A DNA stretch of 34,503 nucleotides from Clostridiales bacterium (GCA_012837605.1 DUQV01000040.1:1-34503), one strand, 5' to 3'; numbered from the stretch's first letter, positions 8,859 through 31,980 are shown. Program-made: numbers and translations. The notes: generated from the sequence alone by a model not told the origin.

Positions 8859-10604
8859 GTGAAGAAGGAACAAAAGACAATAAAAAGAATATTATTACGT
8901 AAATATTTATTATCAATAATAATACCTTTATTGATTCTTGGATTTGTTCTGACTTACTTTATAATGCAGTTGACACGGGAAAAAAGTACATCTGAGGTAG
9001 TCATCAGTAATAACAAGAGTTATGATGATATCAACAGCAGCTTTCGTTCAGTAACTAACGCAATGAACAAATTTAAATCAGATAAGGTGCTGTATGATAA
9101 ATTAAGTTATTTTTATTGGTCATATGGGACAACACTTCCATTTAAGGATTATAATGAATTCCAGAACACATTGGATTATTTTCCTGATGATATTTTGGAT
9201 ATTCAAGTATTTACAAGTAATCAAACAATACTGAACAGCCAATTTGTAAAAAAAACTACTGATGATCTGAAAACAAAAGAATGGTATCAGGAAACCTTAA
9301 AAAGAAATGGTAATACATATTTCTTCTATGCAGATGATACATTATATCTTTCTGCTCTTTTAAAGAGGACTAATATAAGCAGGGATGTTCATGTTATCTG
9401 TATAAAGATGAACATGGGCAAGATAAATGCCATTATGCAGAGTGATGAATACAGCAATATATTTGTTGATGATAAGGGATTTATTATTTCATCCAATGTA
9501 CCCCAATATAACAAAAAAAGCCTGGATGAAGCAGATTTGGAAGAAATATATGACATGGGAAACGGCATCTATAACTATAGAAAAGGTAATTTTGAGAATG
9601 CCGTAGTTACAGCATTTATTCCTGAGGAAGGAAATTCTTATTTTAAGGTTATTACTTTTATAAACAACAGGCAATATTCACGATTCGTTTTTAATGCAAT
9701 ATTAATAAGCTCTATAATCATTATTCTGTCAATAATCATATCATTTAGCAGTCTCACGCTATTTTCAAGAAGTATTTTGCAAAAGTTCATGTTGGTAAAG
9801 CAATATATGCACAATGTGGCAAGGGGAAATTTTAATTATATCAAGATAGAAAATGAAGAAATAATCGAATTCGACAATTTATTCCATGACCTTGATACAA
9901 TGTCGCATAGTTTGACAAACTTAATAAAACAAGTATATGATGTAACTAACCAGAAAAATGAAATAGCGTTAAAAAACGAAGAAATGAAGTTTAAGCTGTT
10001 AGCAAATCAGATTAATCCTCATTTTTTAATTAATACATTGGAAACTATCCGCATGAAAGCCTTTATTAACGGCGATAAGGATCTGGCAGACATAGTGAAA
10101 TGTCTGAGCAGATTAATGAGATATAATCTTGAGATCAAGACAGCTGAGGTGGATCTTAATAAAGAAATAGAAAACATAGAGAATTATTTTGAGATACAGA
10201 AGTTCCGTTTTGGTGACCGTTTAAAATACAGTATTGATAAAGAAAACATGCCTCCCAATTACATGATTTTACCCATGTTAATCCAGCCTATAGTTGAAAA
10301 TGCAGTTATTCACGGATTTGAAAAGACCAATAAGGATATGGAGATTAAGGTATACTTTGAGAAGGATGAGGAATATCTCAAAATTATTGTATATGATAAC
10401 GGGTACGGAATATCAAAAGAAAGACTTGAAGAAATACATGAAAAATTGCAGACACTGGATGATATTAGCGGAAGCCATATAGGTTTAATGAATATCCATC
10501 ACCGTTCACGTCTGTTTTATGGTGAAATGTATGGAATTGAAATAGATAGTGAACCGGACGCTTATACAAAGGTTATATTAAAACTCCCTTTATTTATGGA
10601 CTAA
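8859..10604 (+). CDS. Membrane sensor histidine kinase, YesM/LytS family
   Basis: Two TM segments around an extracellular sensor domain, HAMP-like region, NPHFLINTLETIRMKA phosphoacceptor motif, ENAVIHGFEKT N box, DNGYGISKERL G box. GTG start. Confidence 0.9.
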   Translation: MKKEQKTIKRILLRKYLLSIIIPLLILGFVLTYFIMQLTREKSTSEVVISNNKSYDDINSSFRSVTNAMNKFKSDKVLYDKLSYFYWSYGTTLPFKDYNEFQNTLDYFPDDILDIQVFTSNQTILNSQFVKKTTDDLKTKEWYQETLKRNGNTYFFYADDTLYLSALLKRTNISRDVHVICIKMNMGKINAIMQSDEYSNIFVDDKGFIISSNVPQYNKKSLDEADLEEIYDMGNGIYNYRKGNFENAVVTAFIPEEGNSYFKVITFINNRQYSRFVFNAILISSIIIILSIIISFSSLTLFSRSILQKFMLVKQYMHNVARGNFNYIKIENEEIIEFDNLFHDLDTMSHSLTNLIKQVYDVTNQKNEIALKNEEMKFKLLANQINPHFLINTLETIRMKAFINGDKDLADIVKCLSRLMRYNLEIKTAEVDLNKEIENIENYFEIQKFRFGDRLKYSIDKENMPPNYMILPMLIQPIVENAVIHGFEKTNKDMEIKVYFEKDEEYLKIIVYDNGYGISKERLEEIHEKLQTLDDISGSHIGLMNIHHRSRLFYGEMYGIEIDSEPDAYTKVILKLPLFMD

Positions 10605-10645: not shown

Positions 10646-12166
10646 ATGATACGCACTGTGATAATTGATGATGAACCGTTAATACGTGAAGGACTTAGTG
10701 TCGTTATTGATTGGGAAAGACTTGGATATGAAATAGTTGGAACGGCAGATAACGGCTATAACGGATACAATACAATAATTGAAACAAAAGCAGAGGTGGC
10801 CATTGTTGATATAATGATGCCGGATATGACCGGTTTGGAGTTGGTTGAGCTTCTAAAAAAGGATAATGTTAATTGTAAAATAATATTTCTGACGGCATAC
10901 GCAGATTTTGAGTATGCTAAAAAGAGTATAGAGCTTGATGTCTGCTATTATCTGATGAAGCCGTTGGAAGAGAAAGAGCTTGAGGATAAGCTGCAGATTA
11001 TTTCCGACATCATAAAGAAAGAGAAGAGAAATACCATCTTAACGAATGAGAAGATATTAGAAAAGCTTGTTCATGGAGACAAGGATATTATAGAGGGAAT
11101 AAACAGCGGACAGTTTGATTCAATAAATATCAATTGGGACAGCTTCAGATTAGCAGTAATTCAGGCAGAAGAAACAGACAGTAAAGAGCTTTACAACAAT
11201 TATGCAGCTTTGGATTTGGGCGACACAGCTGATAAATACTATAAAGGTACATATGTTTTTAGGCTGGACGGAAATATCGGAATTCTACTGCATGAAGAAA
11301 ATGAATCTAAGATCTTCCGAGCGGTAACCATATTACAGAAGCATATTAAAAGAACATACAATATCACACCTTACATATATGTCGGTGATGCGGTAAATAC
11401 AATTGATGAAATCGCAAACACCTATACAATTATAAAAAAATACATGCAGAATCGGTTTTTATACGGTTATAAGCAGATAGTACTGGCTAAAGCAGATGAA
11501 TTTAAAAAAACTGAGGATGATATTGCGGTCAGGAAAATAAGAGCCGCTGATTTATATGATGCGGTTTGTCTTAATAATATCAAAGCCATTAATACAATGC
11601 TTGATGATTACAGAGAATATTTTATACACAACCGCTGTAATGAAGAGTATATTAAGCTGTCATATTATAATCTTTATAAGGATGTATATGTATTAATATG
11701 CAATCGTATACCCGAAATAGCGGAAGCCTCATCAGAAGAAACAGACCTGTTATCGCAATTTACGATGATGAACAGTCTGCAGGAGCTACATGGATTTATC
11801 AAATATAAGATACTGCTTTTGTCAGAAAAGATATCTTCAATAAATCTTAACACACCAATCAAAAAAATAATTGACTATATCGACAGAAATTTGGACCAGG
11901 ATCTTAAAATTGAAAAGCTCGCAGAATTAATGCACTACAGCTGTAGTCATATGGGGAAAATGATAAAAGAGGAATTGGGCGAGAACTTCAACTCATACTT
12001 AAACCGCAAAAGAATCGAAAAAGCCAAAGAGTTATTACAGCAGGACATTAAAATATCTGAAGTAGCTGAAAAAGTGGGATACAAAAACAGCAACCTGTTC
12101 TTCACGTACTTCAAAAAAATAAACGGCTGCACCCCTCTGGAATACAAAAAATCAATAACCGAATAA
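10646..12166 (+). CDS. Response regulator with C-terminal AraC-type DNA-binding domain (YesN family)
   Basis: REC domain (VIIDDEPLIREGL, VAIVDIMMPDMTGLE, FLTAYADFEYA, MKPLEEKEL); C-terminal AraC HTH (IEKLAELMHYSCSHMGKMIKEELGENFNSYLNRKRIEKAKELL...VGYKNSNLFFTYFKKINGCTPLEYKK). Confidence 0.93.
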   Translation: MIRTVIIDDEPLIREGLSVVIDWERLGYEIVGTADNGYNGYNTIIETKAEVAIVDIMMPDMTGLELVELLKKDNVNCKIIFLTAYADFEYAKKSIELDVCYYLMKPLEEKELEDKLQIISDIIKKEKRNTILTNEKILEKLVHGDKDIIEGINSGQFDSININWDSFRLAVIQAEETDSKELYNNYAALDLGDTADKYYKGTYVFRLDGNIGILLHEENESKIFRAVTILQKHIKRTYNITPYIYVGDAVNTIDEIANTYTIIKKYMQNRFLYGYKQIVLAKADEFKKTEDDIAVRKIRAADLYDAVCLNNIKAINTMLDDYREYFIHNRCNEEYIKLSYYNLYKDVYVLICNRIPEIAEASSEETDLLSQFTMMNSLQELHGFIKYKILLLSEKISSINLNTPIKKIIDYIDRNLDQDLKIEKLAELMHYSCSHMGKMIKEELGENFNSYLNRKRIEKAKELLQQDIKISEVAEKVGYKNSNLFFTYFKKINGCTPLEYKKSITE

Positions 12167-12183: not shown

Positions 12184-12307
12184 AGTATCATATCAATAGA
12201 AATTGAATCAGACCAAAAAGGTGTTTCACTCACTTAAAGGGTACTATATATTCATACTTAAATCACATTTAAGAGAGAATATAGTGCCCTTTAAGTGCTT
12301 TGATACT
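12184..12307. repeat. Long nested inverted repeat / extended hairpin in RR-transporter intergenic region
   Basis: CACTTAAAGGGTACTATATATTC (12231-12253) is near-complementary to GAATATAGTGCCCTTTAAGTG (12277-12297); inner hairpin CTTAAAT-CAC-ATTTAAG (12257-12273); outer AGTATCA (12184-12190)/TGATACT (12301-12307). Confidence 0.65.
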
Positions 12308-12455: not shown

Positions 12456-15278
12456 ATGAAGAAAGTTACAGCATTAATTATTCTGGTTTGTTTCATTACA
12501 ACTTCATTCATAAGCCCTTCCTATGCTATCGAACAACCTAATAATATACAAAAACTGATATTCGAGTATACTCTTAAGGAAAATGGTTATGAGGCTTACC
12601 TGGAAAAACACAGGGACAAACAAAGACCTGATAAGGAAATTATAATCGAAGGCGGAGATTATTCATATTCCCAAGGAGACAGCTTTGTTCTGGACAGCTA
12701 TGAAGGTGTGGAAGGAAATCTGATTCAGACCTCAGAAAAAGGTTATGTAGAATGGAAATTCAACATAGAGGAGGCCGGACTTTATAATATAGAGATTACA
12801 TATTTCCCCATAGAAGGCAGGAGATCTTCAATTGAACGGCAACTGCTGATTAATGGAGAAGTTCCGTTTAATGAAGCTAGGTTAATCACGTTCAGCAGAA
12901 TGTTTTCAGATAAAACAGATATAAAACAGGATAATCAGGGAAATGACATCAGACCCAGTCAGGTTGAAAAACCCAACTGGAATAAATTTGTTTTAAGAGA
13001 TTCTGAGCGGTTATTCCCGGAACCGTTAAAATTTTATTTTGATAAAGGTGTACAGACCATAAGGCTTGTTGGAATCAGAGAGCCTATGATAATACAATCA
13101 ATTCGTATATTTAATCAAGAGGAATTACAAAGCTATAAGGATGTTAGTATCAGTTATGATATTGATCCGACCGTAGACGATTCTTATATTCAAATCATTC
13201 AGGCAGAAGATGCATACTTAAAATCAGATGCCACTCTATTTCCTTTATTTGACCGTTCCAGTTCAAAAACAGAACCCTTTGCTTATAATCAGATCAAACT
13301 AAATACAATAGGCGGATATAACTGGAGAAACAGCGGACAATGGCTCAGTTGGATAATATCGGTTCCTGAGGACGGATATTATAAGCTTGCTTTCAAATAC
13401 CGCCAGAATTATTCTGTTGGATTACCTATAACAAGAGCATTATATATAGATGGAAATCAGTACTTTAAAGAAATGAATCAGGTTGAATTCTACTACGGTG
13501 CTGATTGGCAGATGAAGACAATTGGCGATGACAGTGAACCGTTCTTATTCTATCTGACGAAGGGTGACCATGAGGTTAAACTGGAGATAACTTTGGGAGC
13601 CGTATCTGATATCGTTAGAGACACCAATCAGGTAGCAGTAGATCTGTACAATCTGTATACAAAAATTGTTATGCTTACAGGAGCGGCACCGGACTATTAC
13701 AGGGATTATCAATTAGAAAAAAAGCTTCCGGATATGCTTTCTATATTGGAAGAAAATCTTTTCATTCTTAGAGAGAAGATAGAAGAACTAAAGCTGATAT
13801 CACAGGACAATGTGAATGAATCCAGTATTCTTGAGCAGTTGGCTTTTCAATTGGAGGATATGATTAAGGAACCTGATACCATACCCAGGAGAATTAAGAA
13901 TTTTAGAGATAATATATCGAATCTGTCCACGTGGCTATTATCCGTTCGTGAAATACCTTTAGATTTGGATTATCTGGTTGTGGCTTCAAAGGATACAAAG
14001 CTTCCAAAGGTTAAAATGGGTTTCTTTGAAAGTATAATTTTTCATATAGTCAGCTTTTTTACTTCCTTTATCGTTGATTATGATACTCTTGGCAACATAT
14101 ATGAAGATGATGCCATTACTGTTTGGGCTATGATGAACAGAGACCAAGCTAATACACTTAAGGCTTTGATCGATGAGGAGTTTACGCCTCAGACAGGAAT
14201 AAGTGTTAATCTGAGTCTGATCAATAACGAAAATATCATGCTGTTTTCAGCTGCTTCCGGAACCGGACCGGATGTTGCGATTAATGTTTCAAGATATATT
14301 CCTATGGACTACGGCATCCGGAATGCTTTGATAGATTTAAGTACGCTGGATGGCTTTGAGGATATGCGTAAGCAATTCGTAGATTCTGCATTTGTACCAT
14401 ATTCCTATGGCGATAAGGTGTTCGGACTGCCGACAACACAGACCTTCCCCATGCTGTTTGTCCGTACCGATATTATGGCGAACTTAGGATTGGAGGTTCC
14501 TGAAACATGGGATGAGCTTCATAAAGTCATCGGTATTCTTCAGGAGAATAATCTTCAATTTGCACCCGGATATCCATATGACTGTATGATACTTCAAAGT
14601 GACAGTGAGTATTACAGCAAAGACCTGACAAAGGTGTTGTTGGATTCTCCTGAGGGAATTGAAGTGTTTAAGCTCTGGACCAATCTCTATACACAATATG
14701 GAGTAGACGTTCATTATGATTTCTTTAACCGCTTTAGAACCGGAGAGATGCCTATAGGTATAGAAGATTATACGATGTATAACATGCTGGTTGTTGCGGC
14801 ACCGCAGATAAAAGGACTGTGGAAAATGTACCTGCTGCCGGGAACGGTGAAGGAGGACGGAACCATAGATAAAACCGTTGCAGGCAATGGAACAGCCTCT
14901 ATAATATTTAATTCCTCGCAGAAGACAGATCAGGCGTGGGAATTCCTAAAGTGGTGGATGAGTGTTGATGTTCAGGCTAAATACGGCAAAGAGATAGAAG
15001 CAATATTGGGAACAGCAGCAAGATATAACACCGCAGCAGTAGAAGCTGTCGGATATCTGGATTGGCCTCAGGAAGAATATGAAGTTCTTATGGAGCAATG
15101 GTCATATGTGGAGGAAATTCCATATATCCCCGGTAGCTATTATGTAGGCAGAAATATTGGAAATGCATTTAATGAAGTGGTAATAAACGGGGAGAATCCA
15201 AGAGAAACAATCGAAAAATATGTAATAGAGATGAATAAAGAAATAGAAAAGAAGTTAAATGAGCTTATCAGGAAATAG
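12456..15278 (+). CDS. Large secreted extracellular solute-binding protein (family 1 type) fused to N-terminal CBM6/CBM35-like beta-sandwich domains
   Basis: Signal peptide (ITTSFISPSYA), no lipobox. Two beta-rich segments (YVEWKFNIEEAGLYNIEITYFP; IIQAEDAYL...GQWLSWIISVPEDGYYKLAFKYRQNY), helical linker, then an SBP domain (LKALIDEEFTPQTGISVNLSL, GTGPDVAINVSRYIP, WEFLKWWMSVDVQAKYGKEIEAILGTAARYNT). Confidence 0.8.
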   Translation: MKKVTALIILVCFITTSFISPSYAIEQPNNIQKLIFEYTLKENGYEAYLEKHRDKQRPDKEIIIEGGDYSYSQGDSFVLDSYEGVEGNLIQTSEKGYVEWKFNIEEAGLYNIEITYFPIEGRRSSIERQLLINGEVPFNEARLITFSRMFSDKTDIKQDNQGNDIRPSQVEKPNWNKFVLRDSERLFPEPLKFYFDKGVQTIRLVGIREPMIIQSIRIFNQEELQSYKDVSISYDIDPTVDDSYIQIIQAEDAYLKSDATLFPLFDRSSSKTEPFAYNQIKLNTIGGYNWRNSGQWLSWIISVPEDGYYKLAFKYRQNYSVGLPITRALYIDGNQYFKEMNQVEFYYGADWQMKTIGDDSEPFLFYLTKGDHEVKLEITLGAVSDIVRDTNQVAVDLYNLYTKIVMLTGAAPDYYRDYQLEKKLPDMLSILEENLFILREKIEELKLISQDNVNESSILEQLAFQLEDMIKEPDTIPRRIKNFRDNISNLSTWLLSVREIPLDLDYLVVASKDTKLPKVKMGFFESIIFHIVSFFTSFIVDYDTLGNIYEDDAITVWAMMNRDQANTLKALIDEEFTPQTGISVNLSLINNENIMLFSAASGTGPDVAINVSRYIPMDYGIRNALIDLSTLDGFEDMRKQFVDSAFVPYSYGDKVFGLPTTQTFPMLFVRTDIMANLGLEVPETWDELHKVIGILQENNLQFAPGYPYDCMILQSDSEYYSKDLTKVLLDSPEGIEVFKLWTNLYTQYGVDVHYDFFNRFRTGEMPIGIEDYTMYNMLVVAAPQIKGLWKMYLLPGTVKEDGTIDKTVAGNGTASIIFNSSQKTDQAWEFLKWWMSVDVQAKYGKEIEAILGTAARYNTAAVEAVGYLDWPQEEYEVLMEQWSYVEEIPYIPGSYYVGRNIGNAFNEVVINGENPRETIEKYVIEMNKEIEKKLNELIRK

Positions 15279-15311
15279 TATAGAATACGAAAATAGTAAG
15301 CTGAGAAGGGA

Positions 15312-16250
15312 ATGAGCAAACCTGTGTATCAGATAAAAGAAAAATTACATAATAAGTACAATTTTAAACGGGTTTTCAAGGAAATAAAGCGTAAGAAAGT
15401 GTGTTATGCACTTATCGCTCCTTACCTGTTATTGTTCCTTGTTTTTACCGTGTTGCCTGTAATCATATCAATCGTACTAAGCTTTACGGAATACAATGTA
15501 ATAGAAAAACCGAACTTTATCGGTTGGTCAAATTATATACAGCTGCTGCTTGATGACAGAGTATTCCTGATAGCTGTAAAAAACACCTTTATATTTGCCA
15601 TCATTACAGGTCCGATAAGCTATTTTGCATGTTTAATTTTTGCATGGCTCATTAATGAATTAAGACCAAAGCTTCGGGCTTGGGTAACATTGATTTTCTA
15701 TGCACCCTCAATATCGGGAAATGTGTTTCTGATTTGGACATATATCTTTGGTGGGGATGCGTACGGACTGATAAATTCAACATTGATGAAATGGGGATTC
15801 CTGAATGAGCCTATTTTATGGCTGCAGGATACAGCAATAAATTTGAAGGTTATTATGGTGGTACAGCTGTGGTTGAGTCTGGGAACAAGCTTCCTTGCAT
15901 TCATGGGCGGACTTCAGGGCGTTGACAAGAGTCTGTATGAAGCAGGAGCAATGGACGGTATCCGCAACAGATGGCAGGAACTTTATTACATTACCCTTCC
16001 GAGCATGAAGCCGCAGCTGATATTCGGTGGCGTTATGCAGGTAACAGCATCCTTCGCTGTCAGTGATATATGTTCACAGCTTGCAGGCTTCCCAAGTCCG
16101 CTTTATTCAGCTCATACTATAGGATTACACATGATGGACTATGGAACTGTCAGATATGAGATGGGGTTTGCCTCTACAGTGGCTGTCATATTATTTCTGA
16201 TTACTACTGTTACCAATAGTGTCATTAGAAAAGCGGTCAAAACGGATTGA
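15312..16250 (+). CDS. Sugar ABC transporter permease (MalF/LplB-like)
   Basis: ALIAPYLLLFLVFTVLPVIISIVLSFTEYN; EAA motif LYEAGAMDGIRNRWQELYYITLPSMKPQ. Confidence 0.92.
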   Translation: MSKPVYQIKEKLHNKYNFKRVFKEIKRKKVCYALIAPYLLLFLVFTVLPVIISIVLSFTEYNVIEKPNFIGWSNYIQLLLDDRVFLIAVKNTFIFAIITGPISYFACLIFAWLINELRPKLRAWVTLIFYAPSISGNVFLIWTYIFGGDAYGLINSTLMKWGFLNEPILWLQDTAINLKVIMVVQLWLSLGTSFLAFMGGLQGVDKSLYEAGAMDGIRNRWQELYYITLPSMKPQLIFGGVMQVTASFAVSDICSQLAGFPSPLYSAHTIGLHMMDYGTVRYEMGFASTVAVILFLITTVTNSVIRKAVKTD

Positions 16251-16269
16251 AGCGGTAAGGAGAGTAGAT

Positions 16270-17187
16270 ATGAGTAAAATAAACATAAGAGCAGGAAGAT
16301 TACCATTCAGCAAGAAGGGAATGCGGGAGGATGTAGGCAGAAGAAGCTACAGGTCCGCATGGGGAAATGCAATTATCGTACTGTTTATGGCTGTTATTGC
16401 ATTTTTTATGGCTCTTCCATTGATATATACTATTTCGACTGCATTTAAACCGATTAACGAGCTGTTTTTGTATCCTCCCAGGTTTTTTGTAAAAAATCCG
16501 ACATTAAAGAATATGAAGGATCTGTTTGCTACTATGAGCAGCTCCTATATACCGTTCAGCAGATATCTGTTTAATTCTTTACTGGTGAGTATTTTAGGTA
16601 CGGCCGGTCATGTTTTTATAGTGGCTATGGCGGCATATGCATTTGCTAAGCATACATTTCCGGGAAGTAAATTCTTCTTTAACATGATTGTGTTTTCGCT
16701 GATGTTTTCCGGATATGTTACCGGAGTACCAAGATTTATCATAATGTCAAAGATAAAAATACTGGACACCTATTTAGCCTTGATTTTACCTATGATGGCA
16801 AGCAGTTTGGGACTGTATCTGTTAAAGCAGTTCATGGAGCAGATGATCGTTGCCGAAACATTGGAATCGGCCAGAATAGATGGAGCAAGTGAGTTTAAGA
16901 TCGTATGGAACATTGTTATGCCCTGTGTGAAGCCGGGCTGGCTGACATTGATTCTGTTATCCTTTAAGGATTCATGGGGAGATATCAATTCTCCGTCTCT
17001 GTATATACAAACAGAAGGTCTTAAGACTCTGCCGCAGGCAATGTCTTATATACAGCAGGGCGGTATAGCCAGAATGGGAGCCGGTGCAGCCAATACACTG
17101 CTGATAATGCTGCCGCCCATATTAATATTCATTATTACACAAAGCAATGTTATTGAAACAATGAAATCTTCCGGTATGAAGGGATAA
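16270..17187 (+). CDS. Carbohydrate ABC transporter permease (MalG/LplC-like)
   Basis: EAA motif LESARIDGASEFKIVWNIVMPCVKPGW; six hydrophobic segments. ATG 16270 with AAGGAG upstream preferred over the ORF-track start at 16219. Confidence 0.9.
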   Translation: MSKINIRAGRLPFSKKGMREDVGRRSYRSAWGNAIIVLFMAVIAFFMALPLIYTISTAFKPINELFLYPPRFFVKNPTLKNMKDLFATMSSSYIPFSRYLFNSLLVSILGTAGHVFIVAMAAYAFAKHTFPGSKFFFNMIVFSLMFSGYVTGVPRFIIMSKIKILDTYLALILPMMASSLGLYLLKQFMEQMIVAETLESARIDGASEFKIVWNIVMPCVKPGWLTLILLSFKDSWGDINSPSLYIQTEGLKTLPQAMSYIQQGGIARMGAGAANTLLIMLPPILIFIITQSNVIETMKSSGMKG

Positions 17188-17255
17188 GATAAATACTTCA
17201 GTCAGTACAATGTTCTGTACATCAGTTTTATAAAGTTATAAAGGGAGGAAAAGGC

Positions 17256-18746
17256 TTGATAAAGATAAAAAGAAAAAAATATATACTGATAATTTTATGT
17301 CTGATGCTTTCATTTTTATCGATTCCTAATACCGCATATGCGGCTGAGCCTTATAAAAGCTATACCTATACAGCCCGTATGCAGGGAATTCCGTCCTTAA
17401 ACGGATATTCGCCTGAGGAAGTATATGTAGGAGCTGATTTTGGTACAGACGGATTTAATGCTCCAAAGGATTTGAGATTTGATTCCGAGGGTAATTTATA
17501 TATTGTAGATACAGGCAACAGCAGGATAATAAAATTAAACGGGGCATTGGAACTGGTGGCTGTCATAAACAGCTTTGACAATCAGGGAGAGAAAGATTTT
17601 TTCAATCAGCCTGAAGGCATGTTCATAACAAAAGAAGGAAATATCTATGTAGCTGATACTCAAAACAGCAGAGTAATTAAATTTGATTCTGAATTTAATT
17701 TACTGAAAACACTTGACAAACCTGATATGGGTGGGCTTTCAACAACAGAGGAATATAAACCGCAGAAAGTAGCTGTAGATGATTCTGAGCGGATATTTGT
17801 TGTTTCGGCAGGATCTATTGAAGGTCTGATACAGATAAGTCAGGAAGGAGATTTTATTCGTTTCTTTGGAAGCAATATAGTAAAACCCGATTTCTTTGAA
17901 CTTGCGCTAAGAAAATTCCTGACTAAAGAGCAGCGTGAAAAAAGAATGATTTTTCTGCCGACAGAATATTCGAATGTCATTGTAGATAATTCCGGCTTTT
18001 TAATGACAACGACATTGAATGTTTCGATTGATGCTGTTAAGCGTTTGAATTCAAAGGGCAGTAATATTATGCGCCATGATGGAAGAACAGGTGACGAATA
18101 TGGAGATGTTACCTATGAATGGAGAGAGACCAAGCCTCAATTTGTTGATTTGGTTATAGATGAGTATGACAACATGCTGTGTTTGGACAGAACAAGCGGC
18201 AAGATTTTTCAGTATAATTCCTTTGGTGATTTATTGTTCCAATTTGGAGGAAAAGGATCTGCAAAGGGTCTGTTTCAAAGCCCTTCTGCAATTGAACATA
18301 AAGATAATAAAGTATATGTGTTAGATGAGCGTAACAATGACCTTACGGTTTTTGTAACAACTGATTTTGGTGAAAAGGTACTGATAGCCAATGCCCTTTA
18401 TATTGCAGGAAGCTATGAGGAATCATTAGAGCCTTGGCAGGAAGTCATACGCATGAATTCAAATTATGATTTGGCATATAAGGGGATAGGAAAAGCATTA
18501 TTCAGAATGGGCAATTATAAAGAAGCCATGAAGAATTTCAAGCTTGCTTACTCATACAAAGATTATTCTAAAGCAAAGGCTGAGTACAGAACGCAGGTTT
18601 TGAGGGAGAATTTCTCACTTATAGTGATAATTATAATAGCCGTTATTATAGCAATCAGATTACTGTTCCGGTGGCTGCACAAAAAGAACATATACATAAA
18701 AAAGATAATTGAAGGCTATGATTTTCGAAGGGGGGAAGTCAGATGA
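17256..18746 (+). CDS. Secreted/membrane-anchored NHL-repeat beta-propeller protein with TPR region and C-terminal TM helix
   Basis: Signal peptide; repeats LRFDSEGNLYIVDTGNSRIIKLNG, MFITKEGNIYVADTQNSRVIKFDS; TPR-like ALYIAGSYEESLEPWQEVIRMNSNYDLAYKGIGKALFRMGNYKEAMKNFKLAY; C-terminal TM SLIVIIIIAVIIAIRLLFRW with basic tail. TTG start after AAGGGAGG. Confidence 0.82.
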   Translation: MIKIKRKKYILIILCLMLSFLSIPNTAYAAEPYKSYTYTARMQGIPSLNGYSPEEVYVGADFGTDGFNAPKDLRFDSEGNLYIVDTGNSRIIKLNGALELVAVINSFDNQGEKDFFNQPEGMFITKEGNIYVADTQNSRVIKFDSEFNLLKTLDKPDMGGLSTTEEYKPQKVAVDDSERIFVVSAGSIEGLIQISQEGDFIRFFGSNIVKPDFFELALRKFLTKEQREKRMIFLPTEYSNVIVDNSGFLMTTTLNVSIDAVKRLNSKGSNIMRHDGRTGDEYGDVTYEWRETKPQFVDLVIDEYDNMLCLDRTSGKIFQYNSFGDLLFQFGGKGSAKGLFQSPSAIEHKDNKVYVLDERNNDLTVFVTTDFGEKVLIANALYIAGSYEESLEPWQEVIRMNSNYDLAYKGIGKALFRMGNYKEAMKNFKLAYSYKDYSKAKAEYRTQVLRENFSLIVIIIIAVIIAIRLLFRWLHKKNIYIKKIIEGYDFRRGEVR

Positions 18747-19369
18747 AGGAAACACTAAAGACAATGTTATATTCTCTTCATGTAATATTTCACCCTTTTG
18801 ACTGCTTTTGGGAAGTGAAACACCACAAGAAGAATACTTTTGCAGCAGCTAATATTTTATTAGGTATATATTGCGTTTTAGTAACAATAAGCAATCAGAC
18901 AACCGGATTTTTATTCAATTTTAGTATGCCTGAGGAACGAAATGTATTTGTTGATATTATATCCATAATACTTCCTATAATGATATGGTCCGTGCTTAAC
19001 TGGGCACTAAGTACTCTTCTGGACGGCAAAGGCACAATGAAACAGATATGGATTACGACCATATATGGCATGACACCGATGATTATATCGGTAATACCCT
19101 GTATCATCATAAGTCAGGTTCTTACACTCGAAGAAAGTTTGTTTTATTCGGTGTTTATGAGCGGAATGTCCTATTGGAGTCTTATATTAATATTATTGGG
19201 GAATATGGTTATACATGAGTATACACTTGGAAAGACCATATTAATAGCCTTATTTACGCTGATTGGATTTGTTGCAGTCGTATTAATATTCATTATATTT
19301 TTAAGTACATTTCAACAATTGATAATATTTATCAATACAATATATGCAGAATTTAAGTATCGATTGTAA
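18743..19369 (+). CDS. Yip1-family polytopic membrane protein
   Basis: 4-bp ATGA overlap with upstream gene; ~5 hydrophobic helices; HPFDCFWEVKHHKKNTFAAANILL N-terminus typical of bacterial YIP1 proteins. Confidence 0.65.
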   Translation: MKETLKTMLYSLHVIFHPFDCFWEVKHHKKNTFAAANILLGIYCVLVTISNQTTGFLFNFSMPEERNVFVDIISIILPIMIWSVLNWALSTLLDGKGTMKQIWITTIYGMTPMIISVIPCIIISQVLTLEESLFYSVFMSGMSYWSLILILLGNMVIHEYTLGKTILIALFTLIGFVAVVLIFIIFLSTFQQLIIFINTIYAEFKYRL

Positions 19370-19393
19370 TGCAGCCTGAAAGGAGAGGACTAA

Positions 19394-21595
19394 ATGGCAG
19401 GTAAAAATAAATGTAAATTTGCGATATTGATATTTTGTATCCTAATTATCTTTTCAGTATTACAAAACAAAGATACTGTGTATGCAGCGGATAATTATAA
19501 ATTAATCACCTCAAACAACAGATATAACTTATATTTTGATGAAGAGACAGCCAATGTAAAATTTGAGGATAGGATAACGAATACCACCTGGACTACATTT
19601 CCTGAAGATTGGGAAGAGGATACAATGTCAAAAGGAGCGGTGCGGGAGAATATCGCAGCTCATATATTACTGGATGTATATGGTAAAAGTGACAACATGG
19701 CGGTTGTAAATTCATATACACAGGGTGTAAAGAAGAAGCAATTTTCATATGAAGCTCTGGAACAGGGTCTTGCCATTACCTACAACCTAAAAAATATTGG
19801 CGTTAATATAACCATTGAATTTCATCTTACAGACACCGGATTTAAGGTGATTATACCATCGTCAGAAATTGAGGAAAACAAGGACAGTATTATATCAAAT
19901 ATAAGCATTCTTCCTTTCTTCTTTACCGGTAAAAAGGGTGAGGATGGATATCTGTTCGTTCCTGACGGATGTGGCATGCTGGTTAGATTTACTGACAACT
20001 TTTCTTTATACAGGAATGTAACCAAGCCGGTTTATGGAAGAGACTACGCCACTAATATCCCGTCAAGCCAGCTTATTGAAGAAAATTATCTGCTGCCGGT
20101 GTACGGAGTCAAAAATGAGGATAAGGGAGCCTTTGCAATAATTGAAAAGCCGGATGCCAGAGCATCGATAACAACCGGCGTAGCAGGGTTTATGTACAAC
20201 AGATTCCGTAATTACTGCACGATTTCCTATAGGGAAAGAAATGAAATAGCCATTAAAAACAATGTCGGACTGGAAACAACCTATCCAAGGTGGTCTGAGG
20301 CTGTCAGCGGGAATATAGAGGTATCCTATTATTTGTTGACAAAGGACATGTCTGATTATTCTGATATGGCCAGAATCTATCAGGATTACCTTGTTGAGAA
20401 TATGGGATTAAAAAAGAATGTTTCTGATAAGGGAGCTTTAGATTTAACACTGATAGGCTCTGTTAAGATGAGAAAGTCATTTTTAGGTATTCCCATTACC
20501 ATGAATGTACCTCTTACAACCTTTAAGCAAGCCAAAACAATCATTACATCCTTACAAAATCGCGGTGTTGATAATATTAACATCAGATATCTGGGATATA
20601 ACAAAAACGGATATTTGGATCAGTGGACAGGAAAAGTCAGACCGGCAGGGAAGCTGGGCGGAACAAAAAATCTTAAAAATCTGATAGCTTTCAGCATGAA
20701 AAACAATGTTAATCTGTTCCTTTCAGGAGAACTGATTCAGGTCTATAAATCCGGAAATGGTTTTTCCATCAGCAAGCATGCGGTAAGAACTATCAGTAAT
20801 GCAGTGTTACAGGTATTTAACTACAGCAATATTACCGGAAATCTGCTTAGGGGAAACGGTACAAGATACCTCACTTCACCAAAATTCTATGTGGACGCAT
20901 TCAAGGGCTTTTTAAAAGGTTTGGTAAAGCTTTCTGCCAACAGCGTCGCATTTGAAGATGTGGGTACAACCATTTATTCCGACTATAATAAAAATTATAA
21001 CATTACAAGAGATGAATCAAAGGACTATATCCTGGAGGCTCTGGATATTCCTGAAAGTATCCGAAATGTTATGTATACCGGCGGAAATGCATATGTGCTT
21101 GGAACTGCCACGCATTTAGCAGATGTTCCTTTATACGGAAGCAACAGTCAGATTACCGCTGAATATGTTCCGTTCTATCAGATGGTTATACACGGATATA
21201 TTAATTATTCGGGAAAAGCCTTTAATTACAGCAGTAATCACAAAAAAGACCTGCTTAAAACAATAGAATATGGTGCGAACATCCATTTCATAGGAATATA
21301 TGAGGAATCATCCAAACTTAAAAATTCCAAGATAAATTATATTCTGAGTGCATGTTATAAGGATTGGATAGATGAAGCTTCTGAGATGTACAGGAAGATT
21401 TCCATTGCTTATGACGGCATCTACAATAAAAGAATGATTGACCATTACAAGCTGGATCACAATGTATATGTAACTAAATATGAAGGCGGAATCAGTACTA
21501 TTGTAAACTATAATGATTACAATTACGTTGTTGACGACAAGATAACAGTAAATGCAATGGATTTTATGATTGTGGAGGGGGGGAGTAAATTTTGA
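19394..21595 (+). CDS. Large secreted DUF5696-like protein (possible glycosidase-like fold)
   Basis: Signal peptide ending VYAADNYK; N-terminal beta domain (YNLYFDEETANVKFEDRITNTTWTTFP) like the sandwich preceding TIM barrels in several GH families; later beta/alpha pattern (NIRYLGYNKNGYLDQW; NSVAFEDVGTTIYSDYN). DUF5696 assignment is from memory of this gene neighbourhood. Confidence 0.55.
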   Translation: MAGKNKCKFAILIFCILIIFSVLQNKDTVYAADNYKLITSNNRYNLYFDEETANVKFEDRITNTTWTTFPEDWEEDTMSKGAVRENIAAHILLDVYGKSDNMAVVNSYTQGVKKKQFSYEALEQGLAITYNLKNIGVNITIEFHLTDTGFKVIIPSSEIEENKDSIISNISILPFFFTGKKGEDGYLFVPDGCGMLVRFTDNFSLYRNVTKPVYGRDYATNIPSSQLIEENYLLPVYGVKNEDKGAFAIIEKPDARASITTGVAGFMYNRFRNYCTISYRERNEIAIKNNVGLETTYPRWSEAVSGNIEVSYYLLTKDMSDYSDMARIYQDYLVENMGLKKNVSDKGALDLTLIGSVKMRKSFLGIPITMNVPLTTFKQAKTIITSLQNRGVDNINIRYLGYNKNGYLDQWTGKVRPAGKLGGTKNLKNLIAFSMKNNVNLFLSGELIQVYKSGNGFSISKHAVRTISNAVLQVFNYSNITGNLLRGNGTRYLTSPKFYVDAFKGFLKGLVKLSANSVAFEDVGTTIYSDYNKNYNITRDESKDYILEALDIPESIRNVMYTGGNAYVLGTATHLADVPLYGSNSQITAEYVPFYQMVIHGYINYSGKAFNYSSNHKKDLLKTIEYGANIHFIGIYEESSKLKNSKINYILSACYKDWIDEASEMYRKISIAYDGIYNKRMIDHYKLDHNVYVTKYEGGISTIVNYNDYNYVVDDKITVNAMDFMIVEGGSKF

Positions 21596-22500
21596 AAAAG
21601 AGAAACTTTTCATTAAGTAAGAAGAGGGCACTATGGGGAAGATTATTTGTTTATCCATGGGTTATAGGCTTTATACTGTTTCTTATGATACCCTTTATTC
21701 AATCCTTCAGATACTCCTTCAATGAGATTACAATAACTAGGACAGGTTTAAAATTAGAACATATAGGCTTGGGTAACTTCAAGAAAGCACTTGGAACGGA
21801 TCCGAATTTTATTCCGACATTTATAAGTACACTCCGGACTACAGCTGTAGAAGTTCCCTTGATAATAATATTCAGCCTTTTTATGGCAGTACTTCTTAAT
21901 CAGCCATTTAAAGGAAGAACCATAGTAAGAAGTATATTTTTCTTACCGGTTATAATTACGTCCGGTGCTCTGCTTGCCCTGATAGGAGCGGATATATCCA
22001 CTAACATGAGCGGTGGCTCAACAGGAGGAGCCTCCGGTGGAATGCCCATGCTGCAGGCTATTAACTTTGAACAGGTGTTTAATAATCTGTATTTGGGTAA
22101 GGGTTTGTCGGACTTTCTGAAACTTATTATTGATAAGGTATACGTAATTATATGGAAGTCAGGGGTGCAAATAGTTATATTCCTGGCAGGACTGCAGTCA
22201 ATATCAAAAGCTTTATATGAGAGTGCAAGCGTAGAAGGGGCTACTGCGTGGGAATCATTTTGGAAAATTACATTTCCGATGATATCACCGATTATGCTGG
22301 TAAATATCGTATATACGCTGATTGATTCCTTTACTGACAGCAGTAATGAAACCTTGGAGTATATTTATACTGTGATATACCAGAATGTTGATTATGGTTT
22401 TAGTGCAGCCATGTCGTTTATATACTTTTCAATCATTCTGGGAATTACCGGTATTATTGTATTCTTAATGTCGAGAAAAGTATTCTATATGAACGATTAA
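21592..22500 (+). CDS. Sugar ABC transporter permease (MalF/LplB-like)
   Basis: TTGA overlap with upstream stop; EAA motif LYESASVEGATAWESFWKITFPMISPI; Gly/Ser-rich loop MSGGSTGGASGGMP. Confidence 0.9.
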   Translation: MKKRNFSLSKKRALWGRLFVYPWVIGFILFLMIPFIQSFRYSFNEITITRTGLKLEHIGLGNFKKALGTDPNFIPTFISTLRTTAVEVPLIIIFSLFMAVLLNQPFKGRTIVRSIFFLPVIITSGALLALIGADISTNMSGGSTGGASGGMPMLQAINFEQVFNNLYLGKGLSDFLKLIIDKVYVIIWKSGVQIVIFLAGLQSISKALYESASVEGATAWESFWKITFPMISPIMLVNIVYTLIDSFTDSSNETLEYIYTVIYQNVDYGFSAAMSFIYFSIILGITGIIVFLMSRKVFYMND

Positions 22501-22513
22501 AGGAGGTGGGATA

Positions 22514-23503
22514 GTGTTGGCAATATTAGGCAGAAGGTCAAAACCAAAGATAATCAAACCAAAGATGAGATTTTCCAAGCAAAGCTTAAAAATCAGATTA
22601 AATAAAGGTTTTTATAAATTTTTAAGAACAATCTTGTTTTTGGGGTTAATATTTATTCTTCTGTATCCGGTTATATATATATTTTCCACCAGTATAAAGA
22701 GCGAAGCCGATATGTTTGACCCGACAACCATCTGGGTTCCGAAAGAGCCTACCATTCAGACCTATAAAGATGCTTATGATGCCATGGGTTATTGGGAAGG
22801 CTTTAGGAACAGTCTCATGATTGCCGGCTTATCAATGATTTTTCAGCTAATAAGCTGCTCCTTTATCGGATATGGATTCGCAAGATTGAGATTCAAAGAA
22901 AGTAAATTCATATTTGCAGTAGTATTACTGACTATGATAATACCGCAGCAAATTATCATTACGCCACAGATAATGATGTATAAGAATTTTGATTTGTTCG
23001 GTTTGCTTAAATTATTTGGCATGAAACAGCTGAACCTTTTGGACAGCTATGCTCCGTTTATTTTACCCGCCATACTGGGAAGCGGTATAAGAAGCGGTTT
23101 GTTTATCTATTTGTTCCGACAGTTTTACAGAGGTATGCCTAAGGAATTGGAAGATGCGGCATATGTCGATGGCTGCACTCCCATAGGAGCGTACTTAAGA
23201 ATAATGTTTCCGAATGCTGTGCCTGTAATTGTTTCCGTATCGTTATTCTCATTCGTATGGCATTGGAATGATACCTTCGGTCCAACCATGTTTTTGACAA
23301 AGATGAGCAAATACCCACTCTCCTTAAAGATGGTAAATATTGTCGGTATGATTACTCAGAGCTCCCAAATCTCGGACTTAACGTATATTATTCCTACAAA
23401 ATATGCAGGAATAGCTTTAGCGATTTTTCCGTTGATAATACTGTATGCTTTGGGGCAAAAGTACTTTGTTGAGAATCTGGACAGAAGCGGAATAGTCGGA
23501 TAG
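22514..23503 (+). CDS. Carbohydrate ABC transporter permease (MalG/LplC-like)
   Basis: EAA motif LEDAAYVDGCTPIGAYLRIMFPNAVPV; GTG start after AGGAGGTGGG. Confidence 0.92.
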   Translation: MLAILGRRSKPKIIKPKMRFSKQSLKIRLNKGFYKFLRTILFLGLIFILLYPVIYIFSTSIKSEADMFDPTTIWVPKEPTIQTYKDAYDAMGYWEGFRNSLMIAGLSMIFQLISCSFIGYGFARLRFKESKFIFAVVLLTMIIPQQIIITPQIMMYKNFDLFGLLKLFGMKQLNLLDSYAPFILPAILGSGIRSGLFIYLFRQFYRGMPKELEDAAYVDGCTPIGAYLRIMFPNAVPVIVSVSLFSFVWHWNDTFGPTMFLTKMSKYPLSLKMVNIVGMITQSSQISDLTYIIPTKYAGIALAIFPLIILYALGQKYFVENLDRSGIVG

Positions 23504-23568
23504 TTTCTATATAGTATAACTGCATTTGCAGATGCTATTTGAATTTATAAAAAAGGGAGGATGATATA

Positions 23569-24957
23569 ATGAAAAAAATTCTGGCGTTATTATTAACCGT
23601 TGTTTTGGTTATCAGCCTATTATCAGCATGTGGTGGAGGCAGCAGCACTGACGATAATGGAAGCAGCAAAGTAAATGGTATTGCTGATGAAAACGACAGC
23701 TCCAATGGTGATACATCAAATGAGGTACCAAGTGATACCCCATTCCTGACAAGAGACGATTATAGTATCTACAAAGATAAATTTGCAGGAGAGACTCTAA
23801 CCATCTGGACATGGTGGGATATGAGTGAAGATGAAATTGAAGCCTGGGAGCAATTTGAGGAATTAACCGGTGCAAGTTTGGATTGGGTTATTGTTGCATG
23901 GGCTGAATATCAGGAAAAATTAATATCCGGTGTATCGGCAGGTACCGGTCCGGATATAGCATACTTTGGTCCTGAGGCTATGCCTACTTATGTTAAGAAA
24001 AATATTATTCTACCGGTTTCTGATTATGTTGACCTTGAAAGACCGGCATTTACAACCTATAGCCCTCAGATTAATAAAATACTTGATTTCTTCACATTGG
24101 ACGGTAAGATATATGCTTTAACCGATCTTGGATCTAAGTCACACAAATTATATTATCGCAAGGACTTACTGGAAAATGCGGGCTTGGAGGATCCGTATGA
24201 TTTATTCGTAAATGGCGAATGGACTTGGGATAAATGGTTTGAGCTTATGGAAGATGTAACAATGGATCTTGATGGAGACGGAGAAATCGATGTTTGGGGA
24301 TTTGACGCATGGATGGATATTACACAATTCGTATATACAAATGGAACGGATTTTGTAATAGACGGTAAATTCGCTGTCAATACACCGGAGTTTATTGAGG
24401 CATTGGAATACTACAGAAGATTAAGAGAACCTGATTATATTTGGAAGCCTTGGGAAGAAGGCAAGGATCCGCAGATCAATCTGATCTCAGGCTCTACAGC
24501 GTTTAATTATTGGGGATATTGGGAGATAGATAACTTAAGAGAGAATATTGGTGATAATCTTGGCTTTGTTCCTTTCCCGAAGGGACCTTCAGCCAAATCA
24601 GATATGGCGGATTACTATGATTCAACAGTATGCGGTTTGGCAGCAAGCTCTCAGAATCCTGAGCTGGCAGGACTATGGCTTGAATACGTAAGAACACCGG
24701 AATCTTTGGAAGCTTGGGAAGAAAAGCAGGAGATACAGAGACAGCTTGACATAGAAAAATACGGTTCCGAGGAATTGGTAGAGCTGGCATATTACATGGG
24801 ATCAGAGGCTGTTATTGATGCGTCGCCATCATATCCGGGTCTAAAGACTGTAATTGACAGTATTGTAAACGACAGGGAAAAATCCGTGACACAGGCGGCT
24901 AACGAGTATCTGGCAGCCGGACAGGCAATCATAGATGAAATACTGAGCGGAAAGTAA
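23569..24957 (+). CDS. Extracellular solute-binding lipoprotein (family 1, sugar ABC transporter)
   Basis: Lipobox LLSACGGGSS; SBP features (LTIWTWWDMSEDEIEAWEQFEELTGASLDWVIV, GTGPDIAYFGPEAMPTYVKKNIILPVSDYV). Confidence 0.93.
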   Translation: MKKILALLLTVVLVISLLSACGGGSSTDDNGSSKVNGIADENDSSNGDTSNEVPSDTPFLTRDDYSIYKDKFAGETLTIWTWWDMSEDEIEAWEQFEELTGASLDWVIVAWAEYQEKLISGVSAGTGPDIAYFGPEAMPTYVKKNIILPVSDYVDLERPAFTTYSPQINKILDFFTLDGKIYALTDLGSKSHKLYYRKDLLENAGLEDPYDLFVNGEWTWDKWFELMEDVTMDLDGDGEIDVWGFDAWMDITQFVYTNGTDFVIDGKFAVNTPEFIEALEYYRRLREPDYIWKPWEEGKDPQINLISGSTAFNYWGYWEIDNLRENIGDNLGFVPFPKGPSAKSDMADYYDSTVCGLAASSQNPELAGLWLEYVRTPESLEAWEEKQEIQRQLDIEKYGSEELVELAYYMGSEAVIDASPSYPGLKTVIDSIVNDREKSVTQAANEYLAAGQAIIDEILSGK

Positions 24958-25038: not shown

Positions 25039-25087
25039 CTTATGAAGAAGTAATGATTAGGTTGGTATGTATGGAGGAAGTATGCAA

Positions 25088-26353
25088 ATGAAAAGGTATT
25101 TAGTTATTTTGGCAGCAATATTCATGCTGCTGGCAGTCGGCTGTTCTGACCAAAACGCAGATAAACCGGATGAATTGCCGGAAAGCGGGACGGTTTCAGA
25201 TACTGCCTCGCAGGATAGCGGCAGCGATAATGTTTCTGTTGAGAATAATGAGCAGCACAAGGAAGACGTGACTGACACTTTATGGAGTGAGCCGGGAATT
25301 ATGCGTGATATGAGTTCTTATGATATTGTAATGGATATGGGATTGGGCTGGAATCTGGGTAATACCTTTGATGCATGTGGTGATTGGATACCCGGCGGAG
25401 TAAGTACACATGAAACGGCATGGGGAAGTCCGATTACTACAAGACCGATGTTTGAGAATCTTCGGGATATGGGATTTCGCAGTGTAAGAATACCTGTAGC
25501 CTGGTCAAATCTAATGAAGGAAGATTATACCATATCCACGTTATGGATGGATCGTGTGGAAGAGGTCGTAAATTATGCCCTTGACAGCGGATTATATGTG
25601 GTTCTTAATCTTCATTGGGACGGCGGTTGGATTGCAAACTTCTCAACAGATTTTGATGAAACCATGAAAAAATATACCAGGATATGGGAGCAGGTTTCCG
25701 AGCGTTTTAAAAACTATCCTGATTATTTGATATTAGAATCAATGAATGAAGAAGGTCATTTTGATGATATATGGAATCGGTACAGTAATTATAAAGAGGA
25801 AGATAAGATAAGGGCTTATGATTTATTAAACGAAATCAATCAGACATTCGTGGATATTGTCCGCAGTTCAGGTTCTAACAATGAACAGCGTCATTTATTG
25901 ATTGCAGGATATTCAACCGATATTGATTTGACTGTTGACCCGGCCTTTAAGATGCCCGAAGATCCTGCCGGCAGGCTTATGATATCGGTACACTATTATA
26001 CCCCTTCAACCTTCACCATATTGGAGGAAGATGCCGACTGGGGCAAGGCTGTATCCTCATGGGGCACCGATGAAAAGGATTATCAGAGAATAAAGGATGA
26101 TTTTGAGAAGATGAAGGTTCGTTTTCATGATCAGGGCTATCCTGTTATTGTAGGAGAATATGGTGCGACTAAGGTTAATAAGGATCAGGACAGTGTAAGA
26201 AATTATATTACTGCGGTTGCCAAAACCGTATATGAGATGGATATGTGCCCTATGCTGTGGGATGCCAGTGCCCATTACAACAGATTACTCGGAACCTTTA
26301 GGGATGAACAACTGCTTAAAAATCTTCAGGAAATAATGGAAACAGGAAGATAA
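25088..26353 (+). CDS. Glycoside hydrolase family 5 lipoprotein (endo-beta-glucanase/mannanase-type)
   Basis: Lipobox LLAVGCSDQ; GH5 motifs GLGWNLGNTFDACG, VRIPVAWSN, VVLNLHWDGGW, LILESMNEEGHFD (acid/base), PVIVGEYGATK (nucleophile), MLWDAS. RBS GGAGGA suggests start at 25088 rather than 25067. Confidence 0.9.
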   Translation: MKRYLVILAAIFMLLAVGCSDQNADKPDELPESGTVSDTASQDSGSDNVSVENNEQHKEDVTDTLWSEPGIMRDMSSYDIVMDMGLGWNLGNTFDACGDWIPGGVSTHETAWGSPITTRPMFENLRDMGFRSVRIPVAWSNLMKEDYTISTLWMDRVEEVVNYALDSGLYVVLNLHWDGGWIANFSTDFDETMKKYTRIWEQVSERFKNYPDYLILESMNEEGHFDDIWNRYSNYKEEDKIRAYDLLNEINQTFVDIVRSSGSNNEQRHLLIAGYSTDIDLTVDPAFKMPEDPAGRLMISVHYYTPSTFTILEEDADWGKAVSSWGTDEKDYQRIKDDFEKMKVRFHDQGYPVIVGEYGATKVNKDQDSVRNYITAVAKTVYEMDMCPMLWDASAHYNRLLGTFRDEQLLKNLQEIMETGR

Positions 26354-26441: not shown

Positions 26442-28064
26442 ATGTATAAGGTTTTTTTAGTAGAAGACGAAATAACCATAAGAGAGGGTATCAAGAATAA
26501 AATACGCTGGGAAGACGAAGGTTTTAAAATCGTTGGAGATGAGAGTGACGGGGAATTAGCATATCCGCTTATAATTAAGGAACAGCCGGATATCTTGATT
26601 ACAGACATCAGAATGCCATTCATGGACGGTCTTGAGCTGTGCAAATTATTAAGAAAGGACATGCCGCAGCTCAAGATTATTATTGTAAGCGGATACAGTG
26701 ATTTTGGATATGCACAGCAGGCTATTGATATCGGTGTAAATGAATATCTGTTAAAGCCTATAACATCAACCAAGCTGCTTGCTGCCGTTAAAAATGCTGC
26801 TTCGGCAATTGAAAAGGAACGTAGAGAGAAACAGATACTGGAGCAGTATCAGCAATTAGTATATGAGAAACAGGGGGAGAAAAGAAAAGAATTCTTCAAT
26901 GCTTTAATCAGTAAGAAAATGTCTCTGTCACAGATTGTCGAACAGGAGAAGGAACTGGGCATCAATATGGTGGCCAGTGTATTTTGCATTATACTGTTTC
27001 AATTCAGAATGCATGAAGATATGTATGAATACTCGAATGAGATAGTGCAGTGTGAGATAAAAATGATGGATATTTTGGGGAAATACAGTAATGTGAAAGT
27101 ATTTGAACGTGATATAGATGGCTGGGCTTTTATCCTTCTGGGTGAGGATGAAAAGCAGATTAGGGATCTAACTGATGAATTGTGTAATCTTTTGATAAGA
27201 ATCTGTGATAACAAGGTACACTATTTTGGGGGGATAGGAAGACCTGTTCACCGAATCCGCGACCTGCAGCAGTCATATCGTGATGCTAACAGTGCATTTT
27301 CTCTTAGGTATTTTGATATCACAGATCAGTTTTTATCTTATAATGATGTACGTGATATAAAGGCACAGATTGTAAACAGAGTCAATGTCAGCGAGATGAA
27401 CCTGGAGAATCTTGACAGGAAGCTGTTGGAGGATTTCTTAAAGAGGGGCACTGTTAATGATATAGATGAATTCGTAGACAGCTATTTTGACGGTTTCGGT
27501 ACTAAAGCCATGAACTCTGCTTTATTCAGACAATATATAATAATGGACGTATATTCTGTTATTACAAAATTTTTAAAGAGTCTTAATTGTCCGAAGGAGA
27601 AAACAGACGGCTTTATTAAAAGCATGAATATAGCCTCAGAGCAGCTTTACAGATTGAGTGACTGCAGCAAATTTTACAGGACAATTCTTAAGAAGGCGAT
27701 TGATATACGGAATAAAAGCAGCTTAAAGCGATATGCGGGGCTTATTGAGCAGGCAAAGGAATATATGCATCAAAACTATGCAATGAGTGATCTGTCTCTT
27801 GATAAGGTTGCATCAACTGTTAATGTCAGCCCTAATTATTTCAGTACACTTTTTAATCAGGAAACAGGAATGACGTTTATTGAATATCTGACAAATATCC
27901 GTATGGAAAAAGCGAAGGATTATTTAAGATGCTCTGCCAATAAGATTACTGAGATAGGATATCTGGTAGGATATCAGGATTCCCATTATTTCAGCTACAT
28001 ATTCAAGAAAACACAGAACTGTACCCCATCGGAATACAGGCTGTCGGGTAAAGGTGAGGAATGA
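26442..28064 (+). CDS. Response regulator with AraC-type DNA-binding domain (YesN family)
   Basis: REC domain (VFLVEDEITIREGIKNKI, DILITDIRMPFMDGLE, LKPITSTKL); AraC HTH (LSLDKVASTVNVSPNYFSTLFNQETGMTFIEYLTNIRMEKAKDYL...YFSYIFKKTQNCTPSEYR). Confidence 0.93.
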   Translation: MYKVFLVEDEITIREGIKNKIRWEDEGFKIVGDESDGELAYPLIIKEQPDILITDIRMPFMDGLELCKLLRKDMPQLKIIIVSGYSDFGYAQQAIDIGVNEYLLKPITSTKLLAAVKNAASAIEKERREKQILEQYQQLVYEKQGEKRKEFFNALISKKMSLSQIVEQEKELGINMVASVFCIILFQFRMHEDMYEYSNEIVQCEIKMMDILGKYSNVKVFERDIDGWAFILLGEDEKQIRDLTDELCNLLIRICDNKVHYFGGIGRPVHRIRDLQQSYRDANSAFSLRYFDITDQFLSYNDVRDIKAQIVNRVNVSEMNLENLDRKLLEDFLKRGTVNDIDEFVDSYFDGFGTKAMNSALFRQYIIMDVYSVITKFLKSLNCPKEKTDGFIKSMNIASEQLYRLSDCSKFYRTILKKAIDIRNKSSLKRYAGLIEQAKEYMHQNYAMSDLSLDKVASTVNVSPNYFSTLFNQETGMTFIEYLTNIRMEKAKDYLRCSANKITEIGYLVGYQDSHYFSYIFKKTQNCTPSEYRLSGKGEE

Positions 28065-30653: not shown

Positions 30654-30771
30654 AAATCGGAAGAAATCAAACAATAATCATATGAATCCTAACCATTAAC
30701 ATTTTATAATCTCAAATTCAGTAAAAATGACTACCATGGCAGTAATAATTTCCGTATTATTTCTATTTACC

Positions 30772-30815
30772 ATTGAATATACTTGGAAATGTAAACAAGT
30801 ATATTCAATTTTTTT
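30772..30815 (+). terminator. Strong Rho-independent terminator hairpin in the leader of the second YtfQ-like gene
   Basis: ATTGAATATACTTG-N10-CAAGTATATTCAAT perfect 14-bp inverted repeat running into seven Ts; RBS GGGAGG and ATG (30832) follow immediately. Confidence 0.8.
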
Positions 30816-30831
30816 ATGGGAGGAAAGTAAT

Positions 30832-31978: not shown

Positions 31979-31980
31979 CT

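Follow-up and report, generated by a model that had tools for sequence, protein, structure and literature searches.

A conserved glycan-uptake cassette of Gram-positive bacteria combines genes for two CUT1-type permease pairs with those for DUF5696, NHL and Yip1 proteins

Nine genes at positions 12456–24957 of a 34,503-nucleotide stretch of DNA from a Clostridiales bacterium (GCA_012837605.1 DUQV01000040.1:1-34503; the whole stretch is referred to as the window) encode two solute-binding proteins (SBP1 and SBP2), two pairs of MalF-type and MalG-type permeases (MF1/MG1 and MF2/MG2) and three accessory proteins: an NHL β-propeller protein with tetratricopeptide repeats (TPRs), a Yip1-family protein (YIP) and a DUF5696 protein. 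Their co-conservation and co-divergence in other genomes give good support to the view that these genes form a conserved unit for glycan uptake. The window probably holds one copy of a widespread, modular cassette of Gram-positive bacteria operating by the six-step mechanism set out below, and we hypothesize that its nine proteins work as one physical machine.

Recurrence and co-divergence of the nine genes

Neighbourhoods were mapped at ∼80 loci of relatives, 80 named loci (Paenibacillus, Cohnella, Lederbergia and many Clostridia) and 20 phylum-wide loci, and components were counted, using all open reading frames (ORFs), at those DUF5696 loci with at least 7 kb of sequence upstream and at least 3.5 kb downstream. 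There were 155 such loci. Some derive from a single species or from close relatives, so they cannot be treated as 155 independent cases. SBP1 was present in 148, MF1 in 150, MG1 in 149, NHL in 153, YIP in 153, MF2 in 154, MG2 in 155 and SBP2 in 129, and the identical gene order recurred in well over 100 loci. An earlier note on this DNA had stated that its reading would be refuted if the accessory genes were not conserved with the transporters; they clearly are, being kept in 153 of the 155 loci.

The cassette was found in Paenibacillaceae, Clostridia, Caldicellulosiruptor and others. The DUF5696 profile (PF18952) matched 63 of 145 relatives at E ≤ 0.001, with up to eight matches in a genome, and, at the stricter cut-off of 1e-40, 37 of 399 genomes sampled across the phylum. 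Strong matches to SBP1 and DUF5696 occurred together in 47 of 48 genomes against 0 of the 97 others (Fisher p 1.5e-37, which overstates independence because related genomes share history). This co-occurrence and the component counts led us to reject chance clustering. Sixteen of 97 SBP1 genes had no DUF5696 neighbour; 12 of these were examined, and all but one (locus L221, see below) were cut by a contig or sequence edge within the following genes.

The components also diverge together. Across 124 cassettes the pairwise identities of the seven core components were correlated with r of 0.84–0.94, and, when paralogous cassettes of a single genome were compared so that species history was the same, with r of 0.57–0.88 (core parts; 56 pairs, 18 genomes). 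Median pairwise identity was 0.52 for MF1, 0.50 for MG1, 0.37 for MF2, 0.36 for both MG2 and SBP1, 0.33 for NHL, 0.27 for DUF5696 and 0.20 for SBP2, the most divergent part. Enzymes encoded beside the cassettes belong to glycoside hydrolase (GH) families GH10/67, GH26/113/130, GH32, GH16, GH3, GH31, GH36, GH38, GH43, GH51, GH88 and GH95, among others. As these neighbouring enzymes serve very different glycans, the cassette is a generic, reusable chassis. These data show that the genes are inherited as a set whose enzyme partners are swapped.

Features of the encoded proteins

All nine genes of the window lie on the plus strand, every ORF at the position given in the earlier note, and ORF coordinates together with Pfam and NCBIfam matches bear out the co-directional arrangement and the families assigned there. 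The tight packing described earlier also holds, although, rather than several overlaps of 4 bp, there are two (NHL/YIP and DUF5696/MF2) plus one of 32 bp (MF1/MG1), the remaining gaps being 13–68 bp. Promoter and terminator scans gave results at or below the shuffled background.

SBP1 (12456–15278) is a secreted protein of 940 amino acids without a lipobox. Its AlphaFold2 model (predicted local distance difference test score, pLDDT, 90) displays two β-sandwich domains and a helical region, with an SBP domain at the C-terminus that is also matched by the Pfam SBP_bac profile and whose closest solved relatives are oligosaccharide-binding proteins. The earlier note called SBP1 a CBM-SBP (CBM, carbohydrate-binding module); the presumed CBM, where the β-sandwich domains lie, matched no CBM family. 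A conserved amphipathic insert, approximately residues 523–545, precedes the SBP domain. Across relatives a lipobox-like signal is present in 71–89% of SBP2 proteins and in 9% of SBP1 proteins; as SBP1 is not lipidated, it needs another means of staying at the membrane. SBP2 (23569–24957) is a solute-binding lipoprotein (Pfam SBP_bac) whose best match in the PDB is an arabino-oligosaccharide-binding protein (6rjy, 2e-21). At one locus elsewhere (L217) six SBP2-like genes stand in a row after the cassette.

The permeases comprise a MalF/UgpA-type protein, MF1 (15312–16250), a MalG/UgpE-type protein, MG1 (16219–17187), and a second MalF-type and MalG-type pair, MF2 (21592–22500) and MG2 (22514–23503). 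Pfam BPD_transp_1 recognized three of the four; the exception, MF1, matched UgpA/MalF-like NCBIfam models only. The EAA coupling motif, intact in each, is kept in all four permeases across relatives and is nearly invariant in MF1. Both pairs fit the gene set of a CUT1 importer, in which an SBP is combined with two EAA-motif permeases, one MalF-type and one MalG-type. The cassette contains no ATPase gene, and the only OB_MalK-type match in the genome, the assembly of which is 85% complete, is a 371-amino-acid MalK/MsmX-like ATPase on another contig.

NHL (17256–18746) has a signal peptide, the β-propeller, the TPRs and, by topology read from its sequence, one C-terminal transmembrane helix (TM), while YIP (18743–19369) is a multi-pass membrane protein of the Yip1 family (Pfam, 2e-11). 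Of the 155 loci, 61 encode the two as a single fused protein. When 124 complete cassettes are placed on a tree, the fused or separate state changes ∼11 times, compared with ∼38 for shuffled labels, indicating repeated fusion or fission. Many loci seemed at first to have lost YIP, but this was rejected, as the protein is there fused to NHL; in a few cases it had been masked by an antisense ORF during ORF filtering. The genome from which the window derives has two copies of Yip1, one in each of its two cassettes.

The DUF5696 protein (19394–21595; Pfam DUF5696, 2e-167) has an N-terminal signal or anchor helix. Its AlphaFold2 model, built with 66 sequences (pLDDT 92), comprises a β-sandwich and a TIM barrel in a GH129/GH101-like fold, and its best PDB matches are the GH129-type enzymes 5opq (Foldseek E 4e-34) and 5wzn, followed by GH101. 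Comparison of the DUF5696 profile with GH129 proteins by hhalign gave a probability of 99% (E 5e-18), whereas the protein of the window did not match the Pfam GH129 profile (PF11308). Catalytic residues of GH129-type enzymes were taken from the literature (PMC5698469). In a profile alignment, as opposed to superposed coordinates, the column of the nucleophile (D522) contains Asp in 36 of the 66 proteins, and that of the acid/base (T562) Glu in 8 and Asp in 15. We therefore rejected an ordinary GH129 enzyme, the pair of catalytic Asp and acid/base Glu not being conserved. Three other acidic residues, D191, D217 and E625, are nearly invariant among the 66 proteins. We suggest that DUF5696 descends from a GH but serves mainly in binding and not as a hydrolase. 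Comparison with viral structures returned nothing useful.

A proposed mechanism of glycan uptake

The cassette is preceded, as the earlier note had it, by a two-component system and followed by a gene for a GH5 lipoprotein. The former consists of a YesM-like sensor histidine kinase (HK1, 8859–10604, plus strand; His_kinase and HATPase_c) and a YesN-type response regulator with an AraC-type DNA-binding domain (RR1, 10646–12166, plus strand; Response_reg and HTH_18/HTH_AraC); its position suggests that it probably regulates the cassette. An inverted repeat read from the sequence (12225–12299, no strand), with arms of ∼19 nt and one mismatch, lies between the two-component system and the operon. 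The GH5 protein (25067–26353, plus strand) is closest to endo-β-glucanases and xyloglucanases of the GH5_4 type and is probably the extracellular depolymerase for this copy. This similarity, together with that of SBP2 to an arabino-oligosaccharide binder, points with low confidence to a β-glucan or xyloglucan-like glycan as the probable substrate.

In the proposed mechanism the two-component system would sense a sugar and turn the operon on (step 1), after which the secreted enzyme, here the GH5_4-like β-glucanase, would cleave the polysaccharide outside the cell (step 2). The β-sandwich domains of SBP1 and the membrane-anchored DUF5696 protein, mainly a GH129-fold binder rather than a hydrolase, would retain the released chains at the surface (step 3). 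SBP2 would set substrate specificity and pass oligosaccharides to MF2/MG2 (step 4), while the NHL-TPR-TM protein and Yip1, given their fusion and co-conservation, may serve as a membrane scaffold that joins the permease pairs and the surface proteins (step 5). Finally, the single MalK/MsmX-type ATPase encoded elsewhere in the genome would power both pairs (step 6), for which the msmK deletion in Caldicellulosiruptor bescii, described below, provides a precedent.

The view of the earlier note that the components form one multi-component machine gains partial support from the conservation of accessory and transporter genes (153 of 155 loci), the NHL-Yip1 fusion, the co-divergence and the adjoining glycan enzymes; that they physically assemble is something we infer. 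Several observations weigh against the proposed cassette and its mechanism. One genome (G127) splits the set across contigs into SBP1-MF1-MG1-NHL-YIP (L221) and DUF5696-MF2-MG2-SBP2 (L069); SBP1-MF1-MG1 is located elsewhere in some lineages (L208, L213) and is absent nearby in a few loci (L143, L171, L209, L218). SBP2 was unrecognized near 26 of the 155 loci, and a divergent DUF5696 protein (L233, G063:C8) has just one permease pair beside it, together with a weak match to SBP2, and may represent a simpler relative of the cassette. The substrate assigned to the window copy depends on one GH5 gene, and the literature searched yielded no interaction, uptake or deletion data for any accessory part.

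Such separability of the two halves in some genomes would also be expected if the operon encoded two independent CUT1 importers, for differently sized or decorated oligosaccharides of the same polysaccharide, with NHL, Yip1 and DUF5696 as separate helpers. Both permease pairs indeed have an SBP of their own as well as intact EAA motifs, and the corresponding C. bescii locus was published as two transporters, XloEFG and AxoFGE (PMC8579813). We nevertheless consider this rather unlikely, as the accessory genes lie between the pairs in 153 of the 155 loci, with NHL and Yip1 fused in 61, and the unlipidated SBP1 needs some other membrane attachment. Furthermore, among same-genome paralogues, where samples are small, MG2 tracks MG1 and SBP1 (r 0.79 and 0.75) at least as closely as it tracks MF2 (0.57). 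A related question is whether DUF5696 is an active hydrolase of a new GH129-related family that trims captured chains at the membrane before import, the rest of the cassette being for transport. The GH129/GH101-like fold, the three nearly invariant acidic residues and the annotation of the C. bescii homologue as GH129 (PMC8579813) are consistent with such an activity; the limited conservation of the D522 and T562 columns, and the occurrence of the same protein beside enzymes for chemically very different glycans, make it unlikely.

The greater conservation of MF1/MG1 over MF2/MG2, and the nearly invariant coupling helix of MF1, could alternatively indicate that SBP1-MF1-MG1-NHL-YIP is a sensor or motor, not a nutrient importer, in which ATP hydrolysis is coupled either to signalling or to the delivery of long chains to the variable half. 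This appears very improbable, since SBP1 carries a normal SBP domain like those of oligosaccharide-binding proteins and the cassette contains no signalling domain. A more elaborate form of the one-machine hypothesis, in which a nine-protein membrane complex uses the conserved SBP1-MF1-MG1-NHL-Yip1 half as an ATP-driven station at the surface, capturing long glycan chains and passing them to the variable MF2-MG2-SBP2 half, with DUF5696 as a GH-derived, non-hydrolytic holder and the whole a Gram-positive counterpart of SusCD in role though not in parts, is speculative and improbable.

Comparison with described systems

How Gram-positive bacteria hold and take up polysaccharide fragments is understood less fully than SusCD-dependent uptake in Bacteroidota. 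SusC/SusD resembles the cassette in outline, in that a constant uptake chassis and a variable surface binder are combined with changing enzymes; we know of no reason to expect homologous parts, the cassette being an ATP-binding cassette (ABC)-type system of the cytoplasmic membrane.

The earlier note had regarded the system as undescribed, which requires qualification because the xylan degradation locus (XDL) of Caldicellulosiruptor (Anaerocellum) bescii (PMC8579813, PMC12285236) has the same gene order and families and is the same cassette. This xylan-induced operon of 14 genes, xloEFG-X-GH129-axoFGE-xynF-xynE-xynD-xyn10A-xynX-xynB, was interpreted by its authors as two CUT1 transporters, XloEFG and AxoFGE, around ‘X’ and ‘GH129’ (PMC8579813), not as a conserved cassette common to many glycans. 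In the matching genome copy (L219/L220) we find SBP1-MF1-MG1, a fused NHL-YIP protein and DUF5696-MF2-MG2-SBP2, followed by GH43, GH10, GH39, GH10, an esterase and GH39, which agrees with the published number of 14 genes. XDL is controlled by the LacI-family regulator XynR, whereas the window copy probably relies on its two-component system. Deletion of msmK in C. bescii severely impaired growth on xylan, pectin and cellulose (PMC8579813). The C. bescii locus was the sole instance in the literature searched, where no description of the cassette as a conserved system was found. In the open-access literature searched we found no mention of DUF5696 and nothing linking Yip1 or NHL to sugar ABC transporters; subscription journals and supplements lay outside this scope, making the absence weak evidence.

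With CUT1 importers that share an MsmX/MsmK ATPase the cassette has in common the SBP, the MalF/MalG-type permeases, the EAA motifs, the lack of an ATPase gene in the operon and the presence of one MalK/MsmX-type ATPase elsewhere in the genome, but it differs in having two permease pairs, two SBPs and three conserved accessory proteins in one operon. As in the Gram-positive polysaccharide utilization loci (PMC5320581), the window combines a polysaccharide-degrading enzyme (GH5), a transport cassette and a two-component regulator. Those loci are, however, defined by gene content alone (PMC5320581), while the cassette is a fixed transporter chassis with changing enzymes. The GH129/GH101 enzymes (5opq, 5wzn) share a fold and detectable sequence similarity with DUF5696 but not the catalytic pair.

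If the nine proteins are one machine, the three families DUF5696, the NHL-TPR-TM protein and bacterial Yip1 would here gain a common function, and annotations that read such loci as two transporters and a GH129 enzyme would need revision. The same accessory proteins nearly always recur, with different enzymes and in multiple copies in some genomes.

Other genes of the window

The remaining genes include a GH31 glycosidase gene (1449–3500) ∼9 kb upstream of the cassette, with unrelated genes between. Downstream, the region 26442–34503 contains a second two-component system, then two Peripla_BP_4 proteins, a double ATP-binding protein and a permease, and runs off the end of the window; from these families it is a predicted CUT2-type sugar importer. 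An ORF for a 113-amino-acid lipoprotein-like protein (3987–4328) matches the serpin profile PF00079 (1.9e-10) over profile positions 3–49 of 370 and, as the match is confined to the first part of the profile, looks like a truncated serpin gene.

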